35,945 bases of DNA from a virus, in IMG/VR virus record IMGVR_UViG_3300047496_000025, positions 1 to 35,945 of that record, one strand, 5' to 3'. A model generated the notes under the pieces. The model had not been told where the DNA came from. It worked only from the letters and a program-made list of their open reading frames with translations, and made no database searches. Numbering within the stretch: position 1 is the stretch's first letter; each line of letters starts with the position of its first letter. Positions 2,207 to 35,766 of the stretch are shown piece after piece. A program made the position numbers and the translations under genes.

Positions 2207-2226
2207 ATTACCTCCTTTCTATTACG

Positions 2227-2303
2227 TGCCCCCGGTAGGATTCGAACCTACAACTAATACGCTACCATTTGATCTGACCAAGTCAGTCTCAGCGTACGGG
2301 GGC
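2227..2303 (-). tRNA. Atypical tRNA-like gene 2 (anticodon not assignable)
   Basis: Minus strand, 77 bases. It has a perfect 7-bp acceptor (GCCCCCG/CGGGGGC), T8-A9, a perfect T arm (GTAGG-TTCGAAT-CCTAC) and discriminator A, with no encoded CCA. The middle does not fold normally. Either a strong hairpin CTGAC-TTG-GTCAG replaces the D arm and an anticodon arm with one A-A mismatch has an eight-base loop (GGTAGCGT), or TACGCT pairs with AGCGTA around that hairpin and no anticodon arm is left. No anticodon can be named with confidence. As with the other tRNA-like gene, it may be a decayed tRNA or a structural mimic. Confidence 0.5.
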
Positions 2304-9724: not shown

Positions 9725-9898
9725 ATGACATACGGAGAGCAAGTTGCCACCTGGGCAATTGTAATTAGCGGAGGCGGGTACGCTGTCGGAGCGACAGTCG
9801 AGCTCTTGAGGAGGAAGCGTGGACGTAGTGAAAAGCATCGGGCTATGGTGCGTAGTCGCCGTGCTATCCGTAGCCTCGCTAGTCCTGTACGTCGATAA
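9725..9898 (+). CDS. Small membrane protein with basic tail, 57 aa
   Basis: ATG 9725, two bases after the previous stop. A hydrophobic, Gly-rich segment (WAIVISGGGYAVGATVELL) at residues 9-27 is followed by a strongly basic tail (RRKRGRSEKHRAMVRSRR), giving a predicted inside-positive orientation. It overlaps the next gene by 80 bases, so its C-terminus might be shorter in effect; the strong overlap lowers confidence. Confidence 0.5.
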   Translation: MTYGEQVATWAIVISGGGYAVGATVELLRRKRGRSEKHRAMVRSRRAIRSLASPVRR

Positions 9899-10142
9899 CT
9901 TCCGTACGAAGGAGTGCTTGTCGGGGTACATGTCTCGTGATGCCGCTGCAACGAAGGCACGTGCTGACGTTGCAGACGCTGAGCGTGTACAGTTCAAGAA
10001 GACGTTGCAGGTACTCGTTAGTGGTGAGACTGACCCTACCAAGCGTCAGGCAGCTATCACTGAGTACATCGACCTTCTCAATCGCGACGATGCTGTACGA
10101 GCAGCGAACCCGCCGCTTCCTGTTCCGACAGAATGTGACTAG
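9819..10142 (+). CDS. Membrane-anchored protein with periplasm-like domain, 107 aa
   Basis: GTG 9819 directly after GAGGAGG. The N-terminus carries one membrane segment (IGLWCVVAVLSVASLVLYV, residues 7-25) and the remainder is a soluble helical region (RADVADAERVQFKKTLQVLV) ending in a short Pro-rich tail. Two bases separate its stop from the large terminase gene. Function unknown. Confidence 0.7.
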   Translation: MDVVKSIGLWCVVAVLSVASLVLYVDNFRTKECLSGYMSRDAAATKARADVADAERVQFKKTLQVLVSGETDPTKRQAAITEYIDLLNRDDAVRAANPPLPVPTECD

Positions 10143-11584: not shown

Positions 11585-13096
11585 ATGAGCGACCAAGGCA
11601 CGCTCTTCGAGTTGCCACCGGCAGGTGATCCAGGATCGGTCGCTCTGACTGAACTCCTGGAAGCGTACGAGCTCGTCGACGTGACAGACGACAACGTCGT
11701 CATCATGGCAGAGACGGTGGCTGTTGGTCCTGAGATTGGCTACAGTTCGCCTTCCCCCTGGACTTCCTGGACGCGTGAGGAGTGGAACCCGAAGCTCCGT
11801 GACAAGCTCGGCGTTACCGAATGGTATCGCATGAAGCGACTCGACGGCATCGTGCGTGGATCCCTCCGAGCGTTCAAGACGCCTGTCCTGTCGGCTCACT
11901 GGTTCATGAAGCCTGGCTCAGACGCCACACGGGATAAGAACGTGGCTGAGAAGATCCAGGAGAACCTCGAGTGCGACATGAACGTGTCGTGGTCTCGTAC
12001 ACTCGAGGACATCCTCCTCATGTGCGAGTACGGCTACATGGTGATGGAGAAGGTCTACGCGCTGAAGGATGACGGTAAGGTTCACCTCGCCAAGCTCGCC
12101 CCACGTCACCCTGCGGACATCCAGAAGTTCGAGTACGACCGCAATGGTGGTCCTGACGGTATCGTTATGGAGCCCATGAGTCAAGTCGGTTCGTTCGATC
12201 CGGTGCAGGGCATCTTCATCCCGATCGACAAGTTGGCCATCTTCTCCCTCGAGGCCGAAGCCGGCGACATGCAGGGCATCTCAATCCTGCGTTCTGCGTA
12301 CAAGCACTACAAGTACAAGGACACACTGTACAAGATCGATGCTATCCAGAAGGAGCGTCACGGCATCGGCGTTCCGGTTATCAAGATGCCTCCTGGCTGG
12401 AAGAAGGCCGACAAGGACCTGGCTGAGCAGATCGGTCGGAACCTTCGTACGAACGAGCGCAGCCACATCACGCTGCCGCCGATGTGGGAGATCTACTTCG
12501 CCAAGCTGGAGGGTCAGCCGGTCGACAGCCTTCCGTCGATCAACCACCACAACCAGATGATCATGGCGAACGTGTTGGCTCCCTTCATCACGGAGACAGG
12601 TACTACCAAGGAGTCCTTGGAGACCTTCTACAAGGCCACTCGGTACGTTGCGGAGACCGTTGCCGACACGATGAACCGTCACGTTATCCAGCCGTTGGTG
12701 GCGATCAACTACTCCCGAGTCAAGCCGCCGAAGCTCTGCGTCCGGCGAATTGGAGAGTGGGAAGATGCTCGTACCCAGTCCTTCACGCTACGCAACTACG
12801 TGGGTGCTGGTCTCATTCTCCCGGACGAGACCCTCGAGGCCCACCTCCGCGAAGAGAACGACCTGCCCGAGATCGACTTCGCAACTCGAGTCGAGCCCGT
12901 TGCTCCGTCGGCTCCTGGACAAGGCGGTGGCGTGGATCCCACTGAAGAGCCTAACCCAGGAACAGCTGCTCCCGGTTCCCAGCCGAACAAGGCTAACCCG
13001 GCACAACCGCCTAAGGTAGAGGGTTCGCGGCAGCCTGCACCGAGCCCGAGAGCACCGCACAAGAATGGTCAGGTGGATCGCTCGGGCGGTAAATGA
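11585..13096 (+). CDS. Portal protein (DUF935/Mu gp29-like)
   Basis: 503 residues starting right after the large terminase stop. Conserved-looking portal features: the crown/wing region with WYRMKRLDGIVRGSLRAFKT at about residues 80-100, a central SAYKHYKYKDTLYKIDAIQK helix, and a stem followed by a Pro/Gly/Asn-rich, probably disordered C-terminus (from about residue 440). Forms the dodecameric ring at the capsid vertex through which DNA enters and to which the terminase and the connector bind. The similarity to Mu-type portals agrees with the Mu-type protease downstream. Confidence 0.88.
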   Translation: MSDQGTLFELPPAGDPGSVALTELLEAYELVDVTDDNVVIMAETVAVGPEIGYSSPSPWTSWTREEWNPKLRDKLGVTEWYRMKRLDGIVRGSLRAFKTPVLSAHWFMKPGSDATRDKNVAEKIQENLECDMNVSWSRTLEDILLMCEYGYMVMEKVYALKDDGKVHLAKLAPRHPADIQKFEYDRNGGPDGIVMEPMSQVGSFDPVQGIFIPIDKLAIFSLEAEAGDMQGISILRSAYKHYKYKDTLYKIDAIQKERHGIGVPVIKMPPGWKKADKDLAEQIGRNLRTNERSHITLPPMWEIYFAKLEGQPVDSLPSINHHNQMIMANVLAPFITETGTTKESLETFYKATRYVAETVADTMNRHVIQPLVAINYSRVKPPKLCVRRIGEWEDARTQSFTLRNYVGAGLILPDETLEAHLREENDLPEIDFATRVEPVAPSAPGQGGGVDPTEEPNPGTAAPGSQPNKANPAQPPKVEGSRQPAPSPRAPHKNGQVDRSGGK

Positions 13097-13165: not shown

Positions 13166-14287
13166 ATGGCACGCTTTGGTTACTACGCAGACCTCCGCGG
13201 CGTCCAGTTCAACGAGCACGCGTCCTGGATTACTGCGATGCGGGTTGGCGAGTACCTGCACCCAGTGCACGGCAAGATCAGCTTCACGCCCGACCGGCTG
13301 AAGCGCTTCGCGGACAGTGTGAAGAACAAGGTCCGCGGCATTGAGCTTGACATTGACTACGACCACAAGACGGACCCCACAAAGGGGAACGAAGCCGCCG
13401 GGTGGGTCAAGGACGCCAAGGTCGAAGGAGATAGCCTGCAGCTCCTGGTTGAGTGGACGGCTTCGGCTGTTGACAAGATCAAGGAGAAGGCGTACCGCTA
13501 CTTCTCTCCTGAGTTCCAGGACGAGTGGACGGATGCGCTAGGCACCAAGCACCAGGATGTCCTCTTCGGTGGCGGTGTGACGAACAGGCCTTTCCTCAAG
13601 GACCTGCTTCCGGTCAACCTGAGTGAGCTGGCTTTCGAGAAGCAGCTGACTGAAACCAAAAAGGAAGGAAACGGTATGGACCCGAAGGCGCTTCGCAAGA
13701 AGCTGGGTCTTCCCGAGGACGCGACCGATGAGCAGGTCCTCGCGAAGATCGATTCCCTGAACAACCCCACTGCCCCGGACCGTACGGCGACCACTCACGG
13801 TCCCGACGCGGGTGCGACGAACAGCCCGAACGGTGTCATCGGCGGTCAGACCTACGACGCCACCACGGCGGGTCAGGTCGACAAGGACGGCAACGCCGTC
13901 ACGCCAGAGGACGTGCAGCTCTCGGAGCTGGCGAAGACCAACCCGGCGATCGCGATCCTGCTGGCCGAGCGTGCGACGAACGCCAAGCGCTTCGCTGACC
14001 TCGAGCAGGCGAACAAGATCGCGCAGATCAACGTCAAGCTGTCCGAGTACAAGACCGGCTCGACCATCGTGGCGCCGGCGATCCTCGACGAGGCCGCGAA
14101 GCTGCTCCACAAGCTTCCCGTGACCCTGCACGAGGACGTTCACGGCCTGATCAAGGCGATCCAGACCTTGGGCAGCGGTGCGCTGGTGCAGCTGGGCGAA
14201 ACCGGTTCGACCGGTCAGGTCAGCACGCGGGCGAACGGTGTCTCGGCGTCCGACGAGGCTGAGGCCTTGATCGCCACGCAGTTCTAG
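13166..14287 (+). CDS. Capsid maturation protease/scaffold (Mu I-like), ending at amber codon
   Basis: 373 residues from ATG 13166 (GGGAGGTGAGTC upstream) to TAG 14285-14287. The N-terminal 160 residues match the Mu I protease family pattern: IDYDHKTDPTKGNEAAGWV, then YRYFSPEFQDEW and GGGVTNRPFLKDLL. From residue 165 on the protein is helical and charged, as expected for a fused scaffold (an internal ATG at 13677, MDPKALRKKLGLPEDA, after AAAAGGAAGG could give a separate scaffold protein). The protease cleaves scaffold and capsid during prohead maturation. The same frame stays open and coding-like for 36 codons beyond the TAG (to 14398). Confidence 0.85.
   Translation: MARFGYYADLRGVQFNEHASWITAMRVGEYLHPVHGKISFTPDRLKRFADSVKNKVRGIELDIDYDHKTDPTKGNEAAGWVKDAKVEGDSLQLLVEWTASAVDKIKEKAYRYFSPEFQDEWTDALGTKHQDVLFGGGVTNRPFLKDLLPVNLSELAFEKQLTETKKEGNGMDPKALRKKLGLPEDATDEQVLAKIDSLNNPTAPDRTATTHGPDAGATNSPNGVIGGQTYDATTAGQVDKDGNAVTPEDVQLSELAKTNPAIAILLAERATNAKRFADLEQANKIAQINVKLSEYKTGSTIVAPAILDEAAKLLHKLPVTLHEDVHGLIKAIQTLGSGALVQLGETGSTGQVSTRANGVSASDEAEALIATQF
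13677..14287 (+). CDS. Possible internal-start scaffold protein
   Basis: In the frame of the protease gene, ATG 13677 is preceded by AAAAAGGAAGGAAACGGT, a strong ribosome binding site, and begins the region after the protease domain (MDPKALRKKLGLPEDATDEQ). Many phages produce the scaffold from such an internal start nested in the protease gene. About 203 residues to the amber codon, helical and Ala/Lys/Glu-rich. Inferred from context; may simply be part of the longer protein. Confidence 0.45.
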
Positions 14288-14398
14288 GAGACCACGGGTA
14301 AGGAGCTCGGCTACGCCGACGCCATGACCGACGTCTTCGCGAACAACGCCGACCTCTACCGTCGGTACCAGTCCGAGTCGTACAGCTTCCAGGCATAA
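14288..14398 (+). CDS. In-frame C-terminal extension of protease/scaffold beyond amber codon
   Basis: Directly after the TAG the frame of the protease gene continues as ETTGKELGYADAMTDVFANN, then ADLYRRYQSESYSFQA and TAA (14396-14398). This resembles the usual C-terminal tail of Mu I-type scaffolds (a short YxxAMxxVxxxNPxLYxxY pattern), and there is no separate start with a ribosome binding site. Readthrough would give a 410-residue product. Either UAG is read through at some rate, or a CAG codon has mutated and the protein is slightly truncated. Confidence 0.6.
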   Translation, partial: ETTGKELGYADAMTDVFANNADLYRRYQSESYSFQA

Positions 14399-14412: not shown

Positions 14413-14811
14413 ATGAGCGGTCCCAACTACGGACTCGACAAGGGCTACAACCTCTCCAACTCCGGTGCGGCCCAGACGATCTACCGGTTCATGAAGCTGA
14501 ACGCCAACGAGAACCAGGTCATTCAGGCCTCGGCGATCACCGACGTGTGTGTCGGCGTCACTCAGCAGCGCATCGACGCTGTCAAGTCGGCAACGGGTAA
14601 CACGCAGGTCGACGTTCGCATCTACGGCATCAGCAAGGTCGAGGCCGGTGCTGCCATCGCGCTGATGGCTCGTGTGGCACCTGACACCGTCGGTCGCGCA
14701 CAGACGGCCGTCAGCACCCAGTTCGTCCACGGCATCGCACTGCAGGCGGCCACGGCTGCTGGCCAGTGGATCGACGTCCTGCTGACCACGCCCGTCGTGG
14801 CTGGCCCGTAA
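14413..14811 (+). CDS. Head decoration (capsid cement) protein, DUF2190-like
   Basis: 132 residues. GGGGGAGG lies before ATG 14413. Beta-rich sequence with TDVCVGVTQQRIDAVKS and VDVRIYGISKVEAGAAI, the layout of small capsid-cement proteins that bind threefold sites on the expanded head and stabilise it (DUF2190/lambda gpD-like). Position between the protease/scaffold and the major capsid gene is the normal one. Confidence 0.75.
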   Translation: MSGPNYGLDKGYNLSNSGAAQTIYRFMKLNANENQVIQASAITDVCVGVTQQRIDAVKSATGNTQVDVRIYGISKVEAGAAIALMARVAPDTVGRAQTAVSTQFVHGIALQAATAAGQWIDVLLTTPVVAGP

Positions 14812-14837: not shown

Positions 14838-15809
14838 ATGGCCGTTTGGAACCCATCAGGCGCCGGCAACGTCCACATCGACAAGATCCTGACTCAGATC
14901 AGTGTCGGGTGGCCGCAGGGCGCGTTCGCGGGAGAGCAGCTCTTCCCCGTCGTCCAGGTCAACAAGCAGTCGGACATCTACTACGTCTACGGTCGCGAGC
15001 AGTGGCTGCCGGAGCGTGGCGATGAGCGTGCCCCGGGTACCGAGGCGAACGAGATTCCTGGTATGCAGGTCTCGACGACTCCGTACTACGCCAAGGAGCA
15101 CGCGCTCCAGATCGCTGTCACGGACGAGGAGCGAGAGAACGCTGACTCGCCGCTGAGTCCGGACCGCGACGCCACGGAGCTGGTGACGGCGAAGATCATC
15201 CTCGGTCGCGAGCTGATCATCAAGAACACCGCGACCACGCTCGCCAACTACGCCACCGGCAACTCGGTGACGATCACCGGTACGGCGCAGTGGGACCAGT
15301 CGGGTACCTCGCACCCGATCGCCAACTTCCGGACGGGCATCCAGGCCGTCCACTCGAAGTTGTTCATGCGGCCGAACACCTGCGTCATGCCCTACCAGGT
15401 CATGGCGGCCATCCAGGACCACCCGGACTTCCTAAACCGCATCATGTACGCGGAGCGGGCCATCTTCTCGGAAGAGCTGATGGCGTCGATCCTCGGCATC
15501 GAGAAGTGGGTCATGCCGGGTGCTGGCTACAATACGGCGATCAACTACGGTGCCACCGAGGCCCTCGGCTACGTGTGGTCCGACGACGTCGTGCTGGCCT
15601 GCGTGCCGGACCGACCGGGTCTGAAGACGCCGGCGTACGGCTACGAGTTCCGCTGGGGCCAGCAGTTCGTGGACCGGTGGCGCGAGGAGAAGCGGGCGTC
15701 CGACGTCCTGCGTATCCGGCGGCGTTACGACATCCGTAACATCGCGCTCGACAGCTCGTCCAAGATCATCGCCGGATACCTGATGAAGGACACCCTGCAG
15801 GCCCTGTAA
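14838..15809 (+). CDS. Major capsid protein
   Basis: 323 residues; GAAGGGAG precedes ATG 14838. HK97-fold features of the Mu/P22-like group: an N-terminal arm, QVNKQSDIYYVYGREQWLPE, EHALQIAVTDEERENAD (spine helix approach), a beta-rich central part, and a conserved C-terminal part with GYEFRWGQQFVDRWREEKRA and DVLRIRRRYDIRNIALDSSS. Builds the icosahedral shell. No large N-terminal delta domain is present, consistent with a separate scaffold. Confidence 0.9.
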   Translation: MAVWNPSGAGNVHIDKILTQISVGWPQGAFAGEQLFPVVQVNKQSDIYYVYGREQWLPERGDERAPGTEANEIPGMQVSTTPYYAKEHALQIAVTDEERENADSPLSPDRDATELVTAKIILGRELIIKNTATTLANYATGNSVTITGTAQWDQSGTSHPIANFRTGIQAVHSKLFMRPNTCVMPYQVMAAIQDHPDFLNRIMYAERAIFSEELMASILGIEKWVMPGAGYNTAINYGATEALGYVWSDDVVLACVPDRPGLKTPAYGYEFRWGQQFVDRWREEKRASDVLRIRRRYDIRNIALDSSSKIIAGYLMKDTLQAL

Positions 15810-29482: not shown

Positions 29483-29660
29483 TGGACACCTCCTCCTTAG
29501 TTAGGAAGAGGGCCATGGCCAGGATCGCCTTGGTCTTCTGCTCGATAGGTGTTGGCACCCACTTGTCGTGGACGTAGCCGTTTGCCTTCTTCTCCGGTGC
29601 GGTCTGCTCGGTGACAATCTCCGTTGCCATCTTCAGGGCATCCGCTCGACTCATTGCCAT
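29460..29660 (-). CDS. Hypothetical protein, 66 aa
   Basis: ATG 29660 overlaps the polymerase stop by one base (TAATG), with GGGGAG upstream; a second ATG two codons later is possible. 66 residues, helical and mixed in charge (MAMSRADALKMATEIVTEQT, then IEQKTKAILAMALFLTKEEV). It overlaps the next gene by 23 bases. Coupling with the polymerase suggests a replication-linked role. Family not recognised. Confidence 0.7.
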   Translation of the reverse strand: MAMSRADALKMATEIVTEQTAPEKKANGYVHDKWVPTPIEQKTKAILAMALFLTKEEVSNASGAES

Positions 29661-32053
29661 TAGAGGTCTCCCCAGCTGTGTCCGTGCGACACGTCTACTT
29701 CGAATGGAACGTACGTGGTAATGCGGCGTGCTGCTTCGACCATCTCGTATCGAAGCATTTCAGACACTTCGTCCAGTCGTGACTCAGGTGCTTCGACAAC
29801 AAGCGCGTCATGAATCGTGAGACGAATGAATCCGATCCCGCGAAGCTTTGGACGAAGTCGAACAAGTGCTGAGAGGCAGATGTCCGAAGCGATGGACTGC
29901 GGAAGGTACGACAGCGCTTCGTTGAAGATGTCGTTTTGGTTTTGAGGCGTAACGAGACTGTACCGTCGACGCCTACCGAAAGGCGTGATGAGATCCTCTC
30001 CTCGAAGGATCCGTTGCTTCGTTGCCGCCTGCCATGCAACGACTGCAGGAATCGTGTCGAGGAATGCATCGTAGTCACGTTTGGCTTCGTCAAGAGGTAG
30101 CTTGTACTCCTTGGCGATCGTGTAAGCCGTTCTTCCGTAGCCGATGCCGTAGAAGAAGGCCTTGACTCGAACACGTTGTTCCTTCGTTAGTTTGCCGTCG
30201 GTCTTGTACAGACCTGCGCCGAGCTGGTCGAATAGATCTTTATCAGGGTCGGCGAAGATGTCACGAAGGTATACATCCTGAGCCAGCCAAGCAATAGCTC
30301 GGCCTTCGGCCTGTTTGTAGTCTGCCTGGATGAGTACATTGCCAGGCTTCGACGCAACGAACTGCCGCCGAATATCCTTGTCCCGTACAATGTTCTGTAG
30401 GTTCGGGTTCCGACTCGATAGGCGTCCAGAGGTCGTGCCGTGGAGCATGTAGTTGGTATACACACGTCCACCGTAAAGCCTTTGACGAATACCCTTGACG
30501 AAGGTCCCGTATCGCTTTGCTTCGAAACGGTGGTCCATAAGTCCATCAACGAATTGGCCGGCGTAGCTCTCTGGAGCGAGACGCTCGGACAACCCCTGAA
30601 GGGTATCCTTATTCGTTGACTCGGGACGAAGCCCTTGGGTGAGGAGGAACTCTTTGACCTGCTTCGGGCTTCTGGGATTAAACGTTTCTGTCTTACCGTG
30701 AGTTGCGGCTTTGACGATTTCGACAATGTTCGCCTCCATGTCCTCAAGCTTCTTGAGGTATGCGAAGCTGAGCTCGGTGTTGTACTCGATGTCGACTGAG
30801 ATACCGTTGAGCTCCAGGAACATCAACTGGTTTGATGCTGCAACCAGGAACTCATGCCAGTCACGCAAAGTCTTAATGGGAAGATCAGGATAGGGCCATA
30901 CGTCTGTACTGGGTGTGTCCAGCTCGGTAGAAAACAGTTCGTACAGGTTCCACGTGCAAGCGACATCCAGGGCGTTATACTTGTAGAGGATCTCCCTCGG
31001 AATGTTCGCATAGTTACCACCGCGCGGGACGAAGCGTTTGATCTCATCGTCATATGCTGGTGCACCCAAACGTTCCACGGCCAGTACTTTGAGACCGTGA
31101 CCTCCGGAACGTTCGTCAAGAGCATAGTGGGCGAGCATAGTGTCGAACCAGAGGACAAGATCCTTATACCATGGATACATACCCGCGAGGTCGAACTTGC
31201 CATTGTGTGCGATGAGCTTCGATCGCCGGAGTAGATCCCCCACGATCCGCCGAACCTCAAGGTCTTGAAGAGCAACTTCCCCAATGACACCTGCCTTCTC
31301 CCTATCCCAGGCGAAACCGATACAGAGCATCTGGTACATGTTCGGGTGATCGAAGGCAGTATCCTTCTCAATACCGACTTCGATATCGACAACGAGCTCG
31401 TAGCGTCCTGTCTGGTCTTGCCACTCCATCAGGTCGCGAACTCGTTGATACGCTAGCTCGACTTCGTCCGCGTAGTACCAATCAGGCTCAACCCATGAAC
31501 CAGCATCGTGATGGGTGACCTTCTCGATGTCCGAAACTAGCGTTGGAAACGCATCTGCATTTCGGAGACAGTAAGCCGGGTGCCACGTCGGGACAATTCT
31601 TTGAACGTCGCTTTGCCCAAGAGCTCTGGTAGGAAGCTTGGGTGGCCCCACTCGTAGCGCGGTAATGGACCGCGGATCGTCAACGAGAGCACCAACGGCC
31701 GTTCCACCCAATGCAACGACATCTTGTACGCCGGAGGCTGCGAGCTCAGCCATAAGACGCGGTCGACAAGCACTTTGCGCCGCCGCAGGAGGTGTAGCAT
31801 TATCCTGGGGGCGACATAGGCAAACATTAGTGTACATCACCTCACTTCGATCGAACCCGTGATGGTTGAGGACCTTATCAAGCAGCTTGCCAGAAGGTCC
31901 CTTGAATGGTTCCTTGTATGCAGTCTCCTGGAAGCCTGGTGCCTCTCCCACGACTGCCAGGCGAGGCCGCCCCTCAGGAATGAGGGACGGCACAAACCCA
32001 TCGTCTTTGAGAGGGCACGCGTCGCAGTTAGCGAGCGGTGCCTTCGGTTCCAC
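29660..32053 (-). CDS. Uracil-DNA glycosylase (family 4)-DNA polymerase A fusion
   Basis: 797 residues, GTG 32053. Residues 1-180 are a family 4 UDG: Fe-S cysteines C10, C13, C78 or C80 and C96, VVGEAPGFQE (motif 1), and PTWHPAYCLRN (motif 2). A 3'-5' exonuclease follows with D223 and E225 (VVDIEV), D288 (AHNGKFDLA) and Y359-D363. The family A polymerase has motif A (IQADYKQAEGR, D578), the O helix with R627, K631, Y635 and Y639 (RVRVKAFFYGIGYG), and motif C with H749 D750. Tyr at the position of E. coli F762 favours dideoxynucleotide acceptance. It would replicate phage DNA and excise uracil near the replication point. A similar N-terminal UDG-like domain is known in the SPO1 polymerase. Confidence 0.93.
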   Translation of the reverse strand: MEPKAPLANCDACPLKDDGFVPSLIPEGRPRLAVVGEAPGFQETAYKEPFKGPSGKLLDKVLNHHGFDRSEVMYTNVCLCRPQDNATPPAAAQSACRPRLMAELAASGVQDVVALGGTAVGALVDDPRSITALRVGPPKLPTRALGQSDVQRIVPTWHPAYCLRNADAFPTLVSDIEKVTHHDAGSWVEPDWYYADEVELAYQRVRDLMEWQDQTGRYELVVDIEVGIEKDTAFDHPNMYQMLCIGFAWDREKAGVIGEVALQDLEVRRIVGDLLRRSKLIAHNGKFDLAGMYPWYKDLVLWFDTMLAHYALDERSGGHGLKVLAVERLGAPAYDDEIKRFVPRGGNYANIPREILYKYNALDVACTWNLYELFSTELDTPSTDVWPYPDLPIKTLRDWHEFLVAASNQLMFLELNGISVDIEYNTELSFAYLKKLEDMEANIVEIVKAATHGKTETFNPRSPKQVKEFLLTQGLRPESTNKDTLQGLSERLAPESYAGQFVDGLMDHRFEAKRYGTFVKGIRQRLYGGRVYTNYMLHGTTSGRLSSRNPNLQNIVRDKDIRRQFVASKPGNVLIQADYKQAEGRAIAWLAQDVYLRDIFADPDKDLFDQLGAGLYKTDGKLTKEQRVRVKAFFYGIGYGRTAYTIAKEYKLPLDEAKRDYDAFLDTIPAVVAWQAATKQRILRGEDLITPFGRRRRYSLVTPQNQNDIFNEALSYLPQSIASDICLSALVRLRPKLRGIGFIRLTIHDALVVEAPESRLDEVSEMLRYEMVEAARRITTYVPFEVDVSHGHSWGDL

Positions 32054-33115: not shown

Positions 33116-33527
33116 CGGAACGCTCCTCGTCGGTTGGTCCGTAGGTTCCGAACTTCGGGTCGATGATCTCGACGCGCGGGCCGAAGCGTGCAGCGTTGAA
33201 TGCACGCTTACGATTCCAGATCATCATCCAGTCGACGCCTTCGAATTCCTTAGCGCCCATCAGGTTCAGGAGGTAGATGAGAACGTCGACGACCTCCTCT
33301 TCCAGGTCACCGAGCACCTCCTCGAGCTCGTGCGATCCACGAACGACCTTCTTGACGAGGTTCGCCACCTCGCCGACCTCGCCAGCCATCGCTAGCGTAG
33401 TGAAGGCCAGATCCTGGTTCTTCGGGAACCAGCGGCTGCTGTCACCCGTGCACTGCCTGATCAGGTGGCTGAGGCTGTCGTTCCAGGCAGCACCAGAGGT
33501 GGTCTGCGGGGGGAGTGGTTGTGTCAT
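33108..33527 (-). CDS. MazG-like nucleotide pyrophosphohydrolase
   Basis: 139 residues, GCAGGGATCAA before ATG 33527. The EExE-type metal sites of all-alpha NTP pyrophosphatases are visible: LAMAGEVGEVANLVKKVVRG and DLEEEVVDVLIYLLNLMGA. These enzymes hydrolyse non-canonical or regulatory NTPs to NMP and pyrophosphate. In this operon it could clear unmodified or intermediate nucleotides, or ppGpp-like signals; the substrate cannot be read from the sequence. Confidence 0.8.
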   Translation of the reverse strand: MTQPLPPQTTSGAAWNDSLSHLIRQCTGDSSRWFPKNQDLAFTTLAMAGEVGEVANLVKKVVRGSHELEEVLGDLEEEVVDVLIYLLNLMGAKEFEGVDWMMIWNRKRAFNAARFGPRVEIIDPKFGTYGPTDEERSGE

Positions 33528-34120
33528 TTGATCCCTGCCAGGAATTCCATCTTGGCCGTGCGCGAGTGATCGGCGAAGACGCCTCGCGTCACGACCGTAC
33601 GAGTGGTTGTACCAGGTGTCTGTACACCGCGAATGGTCATGCAGAGGTGCTCAGCCTCCAGTACGACCATGACACCCTTCGGCGTTAGACTGTTGTCGAT
33701 GTAGTCAGCCACCTCCTCGGTGAGCCGCTCCTGTACCTGGAGCTTGTGTGCGAAGTGGTGAACAGCTCGTGCGAACTTGGACAGCCCTGCCACACGACCA
33801 TCGGGCACGTAGCCGATGTGTGCGAAGCCGACGAACGGAACGACGTGGTGGTTGCAGACGCTGCTGAAGGGGATCTTGTTAATGACGATCATCTGATCGG
33901 CATCCTCTTCGAAGACCTTCCACTTGATGCAGTCGCCGTTGCAGTCCTTACACTTCGTCAGCTCGTCCAACATGGACACGAAGCGCTTCGGGGTGTCTCG
34001 ACCGTGATCGTTCATCTGGAGACCGGCGTACAGCTTGAGCAGGTCCTCAGCGCAGCCCGGTACTTCGTGCTGCTCAGCCTTCAGGGCTTTGTAGCGGTCG
34101 TTCATCTCTCGCAGCTGCAT
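33524..34120 (-). CDS. folE: GTP cyclohydrolase I (FolE)
   Basis: 198 residues from ATG 34120 (GAAGG, seven bases before). The open frame continues to a TTG at 34174, giving 18 more residues, but without a ribosome binding site. Zinc ligands C89 and H92 in SVCNHHVVPFVG, C160 in EAEHLCMTIRG, and catalytic H91; GLSKFARAVHHFAHKLQVQE is the family core. Converts GTP to dihydroneopterin triphosphate, the first step of both folate and 7-deazaguanine synthesis. Coupled by ATGA to MazG. Confidence 0.92.
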   Translation of the reverse strand: MQLREMNDRYKALKAEQHEVPGCAEDLLKLYAGLQMNDHGRDTPKRFVSMLDELTKCKDCNGDCIKWKVFEEDADQMIVINKIPFSSVCNHHVVPFVGFAHIGYVPDGRVAGLSKFARAVHHFAHKLQVQERLTEEVADYIDNSLTPKGVMVVLEAEHLCMTIRGVQTPGTTTRTVVTRGVFADHSRTAKMEFLAGIK

Positions 34121-34146
34121 CTCTGCGCCTTCGAGACTAGGCAACT

Positions 34147-34281
34147 TCAGACCCCGATCTTGTCCATGATCCAAACGATAGAAATGACGAACATCCCCAC
34201 GATGCTATAGCTGCAGGGACCTTTACCGCTTGACGTATGCGGTGGAGGAGCTGGTGGCTTCCTGCCAGAGTAGCCAGGCAT
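34147..34281 (-). CDS. Small membrane protein, 44 aa
   Basis: ATG 34281 in a TAATG overlap with the QueE stop, GGAG upstream. The sequence starts MPGYSGRKPPAPPPHTSSGK and has one hydrophobic helix (SYSIVGMFVISIVWIMDKIG) at the C-terminus. It overlaps the start of folE. No obvious connection to modification; may serve in envelope function or be a coupling leader. Confidence 0.65.
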   Translation of the reverse strand: MPGYSGRKPPAPPPHTSSGKGPCSYSIVGMFVISIVWIMDKIGV

Positions 34282-34985
34282 TACACTCCAATCTGATCCG
34301 GATGCCAGATGAACTTGTGCACCTGGACGTTGAGCTTCCAGGGAAGCTGGTCATCGAGCATCCACTTGCACAGCGCCTCCGTGGAGAGCTTCCCCCACAC
34401 GACGCCGGCGTACACCTGAGGACGCTTGTAGACCTCCAGCGTTGCGATCTCGGTCGCGTACCGCTCCTTGGCGACCACGTAGTCGTACGGATCCGAGATG
34501 GTGAACTTGATCGCATCGGTGTTGCCGAGCTGACTGAAATTGCCATCGAAGTCCTCGTTGGCGACGTAGGCGTCCGACTCACCAGAGCCCGGAAGCTTCC
34601 AGTCGAGGATGAACGTGGAGATGTCCATCGTCGTGTCTTCGTCCCACGCGAGTGCACCGTTTGTGAAGCACTCGATGTCTCGACCAGCTGCGTGCAGGTA
34701 GCCTGTGAACTCCCGCAGCGCGTCAGCGTTCTGCAGGAAGACCTCACCACCAGTCAGGCAGATGTTATCGATGCGGAAGGCGTTGACAATATCTGCAAGC
34801 TCGCTTGGTTCGGCGAACTGCTGCGTGTCCTTGAACAGCTTCGGGTCGATGGCGTGCTGAGTGTCACACGGCCAGAGAGGACACTTGAAGTTGCAGCCGG
34901 CGAACCGTACGAAGACGGTCGGCTTGCTGGTATTGGGTCCCTCTCCCTGGTAGCTTGCATAGACCTCGATCACCCTCAGTTTCAT
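34281..34985 (-). CDS. queE: 7-carboxy-7-deazaguanine synthase (QueE)
   Basis: 234 residues, CAGGAGAAGCA before ATG 34985. QueE opening YASYQGEGPN, then RFAGCNFKCPLWPCDTQHAI with cysteines C31, C35 and C40, a radical-SAM [4Fe-4S] cluster site, and CLTGGEVFLQ as the GGE motif. Converts 6-carboxy-tetrahydropterin to CDG. The spacing CX3CX4C differs from the common CX3CX2C. Confidence 0.9.
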   Translation of the reverse strand: MKLRVIEVYASYQGEGPNTSKPTVFVRFAGCNFKCPLWPCDTQHAIDPKLFKDTQQFAEPSELADIVNAFRIDNICLTGGEVFLQNADALREFTGYLHAAGRDIECFTNGALAWDEDTTMDISTFILDWKLPGSGESDAYVANEDFDGNFSQLGNTDAIKFTISDPYDYVVAKERYATEIATLEVYKRPQVYAGVVWGKLSTEALCKWMLDDQLPWKLNVQVHKFIWHPDQIGV

Positions 34986-35146
34986 TGCTTCTCCTGTTCA
35001 GGAACGCCATACGCCTTGATGCAGCGCGTATCGATTAGCTTCACGTCAGTTGTGTCCTTAGGAGAGGAGACATAGCGACAGCAACAATCCTCAACATGGT
35101 ACATGAGGATTGCACCCTGCTCTGCCGACACCTCTCGTAGTGTCAT
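34982..35146 (-). CDS. Small cysteine-rich protein, 54 aa
   Basis: ATG 35146 overlaps the QueD stop as ATGA and has AAGGGAG upstream. The sequence MTLREVSAEQGAILMYHVED is followed by CCCRY and a later cysteine; ends VPEQEKQ. The triple cysteine could bind metal or assemble a cluster. It fills the gap between queD and queE and overlaps queE by four bases. Function unknown. Confidence 0.75.
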   Translation of the reverse strand: MTLREVSAEQGAILMYHVEDCCCRYVSSPKDTTDVKLIDTRCIKAYGVPEQEKQ

Positions 35147-35631
35147 CGTGCTCCCTTCGCGAACTTAGCTTCGAAGCCGGACCACTGGTACATGGCCTCG
35201 GCTCCGTTAGTTTTGGTCTCGTCGATGCGGCAGATGACGTCGACGTGGAACTCGTTGCAGGCCCACTCGGCGATCCACTTGGCGAGGTTCTCGACCGTCG
35301 GGTCACCTGGTACACAGACCAAACCGGGTAGCTGCAGCCAGTCGATCACATCCTTGTCATCCGACACGTTGAGCAGTCCGGCCCAGGGGTCTTCGCGGTT
35401 CAAGACGAGGTGGTGGTCGTACGTGGCGTCGATGTGGTTCCGGAAGGTCCTCTTCAGCCGACCGAACTCCAACTTGTTGCCATGCGAGTCAACGGCCATG
35501 CCGTCGGATCCTTCGCTCACGAGCAGAACCAGTTCGACCTGCATGCCGTGACCGTGGATCTGCTGGCACTTGCCAGTGTCGAGAGACAGCCTGTGAGCCA
35601 TCTCCATGTTGTGCCTAATCTTCAAACGCAC
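35143..35631 (-). CDS. queD: 6-carboxy-tetrahydropterin synthase (QueD)
   Basis: 162 residues from GTG 35631, chosen for GAGGTGAT three bases upstream; the frame opens further upstream (ATG 35670) without one. IRHNMEMAHRLSLDTGKCQQ and IHGHGMQVEL carry the zinc ligands H13, H26, H28 and catalytic C22; DATYDHHLVLN and GDPTVENLAKWI are further family signatures. Converts dihydroneopterin triphosphate to 6-carboxy-tetrahydropterin, between FolE and QueE in the pathway. Confidence 0.9.
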   Translation of the reverse strand: MRLKIRHNMEMAHRLSLDTGKCQQIHGHGMQVELVLLVSEGSDGMAVDSHGNKLEFGRLKRTFRNHIDATYDHHLVLNREDPWAGLLNVSDDKDVIDWLQLPGLVCVPGDPTVENLAKWIAEWACNEFHVDVICRIDETKTNGAEAMYQWSGFEAKFAKGAR

Positions 35632-35766
35632 CGGATCACCTCGCTCGTGTGGTGTTGTGTAGCTGTGCATTAAGGTTGTTAAACATGAGCGTCTGGAGAA
35701 CCTCACAACTCCACACGCACGAAGTACCCAGATGCCGATCTGTGAGCGCACATCTGGGTCCAGGCA
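35632..35766 (-). other. Leader of the modification operon with hairpin and repeats
   Basis: Between the secreted-protein gene and queD. It has a 9-bp hairpin (ACCCAGATG 35726-35734 with CATCTGGGT 35751-35759), then CGTGTGGAGTTGTGAGG (35701-35717, minus) and TGTTTAACAACCT (about 35674-35686, minus). No promoter of good quality is seen, so it may be an intercistronic regulatory leader. Confidence 0.5.
35726..35759 (-). terminator. Hairpin after secreted-protein gene
   Basis: A 9-bp stem around 16 bases, just beyond the stop at 35767. No T-run follows. It may partly separate transcription of the upstream gene from queD. Confidence 0.5.

Follow-up and report, generated by a model that had tools for sequence, protein, structure and literature searches.

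In phage Mu, the protease-scaffold gene I/Z has an internal in-frame start giving a scaffold-only protein, and in phage lambda the C protease and the Nu3 scaffold have a C-terminal region in common, likewise through an internal start. A gene of the Mu I type was analyzed here in IMG/VR virus record IMGVR_UViG_3300047496_000025, which was taken whole (35,945 bases; 'the window'). Its frame opens at the ATG at 13166 and is interrupted by an amber codon (TAG, 14285-14287), after which 36 more codons (the 'tail') remain open up to a TAA at 14396-14398. The amber is very probably an isolated recent nonsense substitution in an intact gene, that is, a consensus or assembly error, a minority variant that the assembly took up, or a true amber mutant. 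Such a substitution is an ordinary kind of event, and from the comparisons below we infer that it is recent or artefactual.

For the survey of relatives, IMG/VR was scanned with the family alignment; the patterns were taken from the protease domain so that the tail did not bias the search, and 80 loci were recovered. Together with the first IMG/VR scan and one GTDB contig, 82 loci were read, 76 of them with a complete gene (some are near-identical duplicates). An internal stop was present in 0/76 complete relatives; rather than stopping at the homologous position without an extension, all 76 read on into the tail. The tail columns were filled in 59/59 aligned proteins, and A386, L397 and Y401 were each at least 90% conserved. 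The original prediction had proposed that the amber splits the gene, that the extension beyond it is coding-like, and that the expected gene end is 14398. Alignment of the readthrough translation with homologues bore this out: the extension has its counterpart at the C-terminus of each complete relative and is the real C-terminus of the protein, and relatives end at the homologous place. From the end of the extension to the start of the next gene there are 14 bases here and 13–16 bases in relatives of the close group. For annotation, the gene is best extended to 14398 with the stop marked as internal; 14287 should not be taken as its end.

The nearest relative (L010) has a protein 75% identical to that of the window, and 28/36 tail residues match. 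Between the two, the tail shows 78% amino-acid identity (dN 0.13, dS 0.36, dN/dS ∼0.37), and the remainder of the scaffold part is 67% identical. As the tail has not decayed, the stop is either recent or not effective. Depending on the outgroup, a relative-rate test of the tail assigned 2–6 nonsynonymous changes to the window branch and 1–4 to that of L010, numbers too small to be informative. When near-identical DNA around the stop was sought in IMG/VR, the L010 contig was the sole match. No match to cultured phages was obtained with blastn, and tblastn against the same set gave distant protease matches only, covering ≤50% of the query; GTDB genome contigs gave one distant relative (L083).

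The absence of an own start for the extension, also claimed originally, was effectively right, although an in-frame ATG does occur within it (14323-14325 region). Reinitiation at this ATG was rejected: the nearest AAGGAG lies ∼18 nt before it, beyond the spacing of a normal Shine-Dalgarno sequence, and the same AAGGAG occurs in L010.

At the amber site, close relatives carry codons for Lys (in the closest), Ser, His or Asn. A CAG origin is therefore not favoured, and of the suggested 'recent CAG-to-TAG change' the recent, isolated nonsense substitution in an intact gene stands, without CAG as its source. Several points weigh against the favoured reading. Across six head genes there was no clear excess of private residues at invariant columns, and the window is not generally error-rich; relative to a real mutation, a random error thereby loses some of its likelihood. 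A real truncation, in turn, would be hard to keep in a presumably essential gene without a suppressing host. A 9-base in-frame deletion directly before the CAG-TTC-TAG (14272-14284 region) is shared by none of the close, non-conspecific relatives compared. Deletion and amber thus make two private changes within ∼12 bases, a curiosity without explanation; the in-frame nature of the deletion suggests real evolution of a translated sequence. The private-residue count also led to rejection of generally poor sequence quality as a cause, and it says nothing for or against a programmed amber.

In this genome and in its relatives, TAG serves as a normal stop, as it ends genes at homologous ends: TAG closes the window gene at 9819-10142, three bases before the terminase gene, at the point where its relative ends too, and it also closes the homologous protease/scaffold gene of L010, L005 and L007. 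When the window genes were matched to open reading frames (ORFs) of the L010, L012 and L003 contigs, the amber at 14285 was the only internal stop; of the two other cases flagged, one was a small difference at a gene end (14811) and one a match on the antisense strand (34839-35300). With one internal TAG and TAG still terminating genes, the pattern is not that of a reassigned codon.

The contig is co-linear with relatives of ∼50–52 kb (L084-L086), allowing for circular permutation, and from this co-linearity of gene order it appears to be without about 16 kb that is present in them. The 'two unusual tRNA-like genes' of the original prediction were reduced to one: ARAGORN made a single call in the window, a tRNA-Leu(CAG) at 2226-2303 (minus strand), which no Rfam tRNA model backs. 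At exactly these positions, on the opposite strand, Rfam gave a sub-threshold match to an unrelated family, and some hairpin may exist there. ARAGORN found no tRNA in the three ∼50–52 kb relatives, whose sequences cover the ∼16 kb that this contig seems to lack. No tRNA with a CTA anticodon was found in the window or in these three relatives, with ∼16 kb of the phage's own genome apparently missing from the search.

For structure prediction, AlphaFold2 was run on a 59-row alignment with the stop position entered as lysine. The tail was modelled as two helices (residues 383-393 and 395-405), with block pLDDT ∼90–94 over residues 381-400 and 73 at the end. The amber lies where the helix before the tail ends, and a terminated product would be without the whole C-terminal hairpin. 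A helix-loop-helix is present in the C-terminal portion of the P22 scaffold and in the phi29 scaffold (PMC3185693), which makes a coat-binding role for the tail a reasonable inference; by this analogy, the helix-turn-helix is probably the coat-protein-binding part. The working protein of this phage lineage is very probably the 410-residue form.

Two scaffold-type products probably exist through an internal start at codon 171, which the original prediction overlooked. The Met171 column holds ATG, GTG or TTG in 53/59 homologues, and a Shine-Dalgarno-like sequence lies upstream in 53/53 of these (in the window, start and Shine-Dalgarno sequence fall within 13650-13680). The pattern set used for Shine-Dalgarno sequences was broad, and the control was scored with the same set: only 94/857 (11%) of other in-frame start codons in the homologous genes had such a sequence. 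This in-frame start with its Shine-Dalgarno sequence lies after the protease domain, as in a nested gene. The two products would differ on their N-terminal side, so the amber is not needed for them; the shorter, scaffold-only product would arise at codon 171 and not from the amber. Of more solid biological weight is this start, since it shows that a family of phages, mostly uncultured, has the nested protease/scaffold layout.

Functional UAG readthrough, giving protease/scaffold proteins of 373 and 410 residues and two matching scaffold-only products, was considered very unlikely. Beyond the stop, the open frame is both conserved and constrained, and phages can extend capsid proteins at the C-terminus by recoding, as in T7, where a minor extended capsid protein is made by frameshifting (PMC3185693). 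Conserved coding potential after the stop is equally expected from a recent mutation or an error, and the stop itself is conserved in none of the complete relatives. The 80 nt after the TAG folded no better than shuffled sequences (z −0.78), although some readthrough signals need no structure. The base directly 3' of the TAG is G, and G after UAG is not known as a leaky context for readthrough. The short form would also be without the entire conserved helix-turn-helix. The original proposal of 'UAG readthrough giving two scaffold lengths' was not supported, given an amber unique against 76 complete relatives, TAG as a normal terminator, no suppressor tRNA and no structural signal. There is only a slim chance that the lineage has newly acquired working readthrough (or an amber-suppressing host), with most scaffold tailless and a fraction tailed, as a control of the ratio on top of the nested start. 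Readthrough, if true, would be an uncommon example of scaffold stoichiometry set by a leaky stop in a tailed phage.

A fully functional truncated protein of 373 residues, with the tail dispensable in this lineage, was judged highly unlikely. The stop does fall in the linker that leads into the tail, which is variable and differs in length among relatives; against this, every complete relative keeps the tail with its conserved residues, and the window tail shows no clear decay (few sites, weak). Efficient decoding of the stop by a host or phage suppressor tRNA, or reassignment of TAG in this phage, would fit the intact tail, and the ∼16 kb apparently missing could hold a tRNA, but it is extremely improbable given the genes still terminated by TAG at homologous ends, the single internal TAG among compared genes against 41 ORFs with in-frame TAG in the TAG-recoding phage phAss-1 (PMC10607447), and the lack of any tRNA in the three ∼50–52 kb relatives.

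The Mu I-type identity of the gene was confirmed by PF10123 (Mu-like_Pro; E 8.1e-28, 98.3 bits against a curated Pfam cut-off of 25.2), by phrog_328 (head maturation protease, E 9.3e-28) and by gene order, as it sits between the portal and major head protein genes, the place expected for this family (Table 1). Close IMG/VR relatives are 57–76% identical to the protein over its full length. The best Protein Data Bank match of the protease-domain model was the T4 gp21 capsid assembly protease, which was weak (E 6e-3, prob 1.00), and a profile search by sequence found no relative of the protein with a solved structure. Elsewhere in the window, genes for GTP cyclohydrolase I and for QueE-like and QueD-like proteins lie near a DNA polymerase gene; the three likely represent the 7-deazaguanine DNA modification pathway, described for other phages (PMC6884629). 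As to the host, the best matches of the terminase no more than hint at Actinobacteria.

Table 1. Positions of the protease/scaffold gene, its parts and other genes in the window
Feature	Position	Strand	Basis or remark
Portal gene, Mu/P23-45-type	11585-13096		Upstream of protease/scaffold gene
Full-length Mu I-type head maturation protease/scaffold gene, 410 codons including amber	13166..14398	+	PF10123, phrog_328, relatives
Protease domain, residues 1-170	13166..13675	+	Most conserved stretch of family alignment
Probable internal start (ATG, Met171) of separate scaffold protein, preceded by AAGGAAGG	13676..13678	+	Start codon and Shine-Dalgarno sequence in 53/59 homologues
In-frame amber TAG, codon 374, end of helix 361-375	14285..14287	+	Absent from 76/76 complete relatives
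Conserved C-terminal tail, residues 375-410, modelled helix-turn-helix	14288..14395	+	59/59 aligned proteins
TAA, homologous gene end	14396..14398	+	Relatives stop at same place
Small head protein, next gene, ATG start at 14413	14413..14811	+	phrog_673, E 1.4e-17
Major head protein gene	14838..15809	+	phrog_1005, E 2.8e-72
DNA polymerase gene	29660-32053
GTP cyclohydrolase I gene	33524-34174	-
QueE-like gene	34281-34985	-
QueD-like gene	35143-35751	-

Compared with known systems, the locus shares in-frame TAG with the TAG-recoding gut phages (crAss-like, phAss-1), but there is just one here and TAG works as a stop. T7 uses a frameshift and not stop readthrough, and its extension is conserved in T3, whereas the amber here is found in no relative. 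To the helix-loop-helix of the P22 and phi29 scaffolds, the predicted helices of the tail bear a likeness of shape only. With lambda C/Nu3, the likeness is one of nested protease/scaffold layout, and lambda is not known to have an amber at the corresponding point. Both C and the capsid protein E are interaction partners of lambda Nu3 (PMC3224144). The genome, which carries genes for a tape measure protein and for a DNA polymerase of its own, is not evidently that of a transposing Mu-like phage. The locus nevertheless resembles Mu I/Z in its PF10123 domain, its place between the portal and major head protein and its internal in-frame start, and it differs in the single in-frame amber that precedes the final 36 codons.
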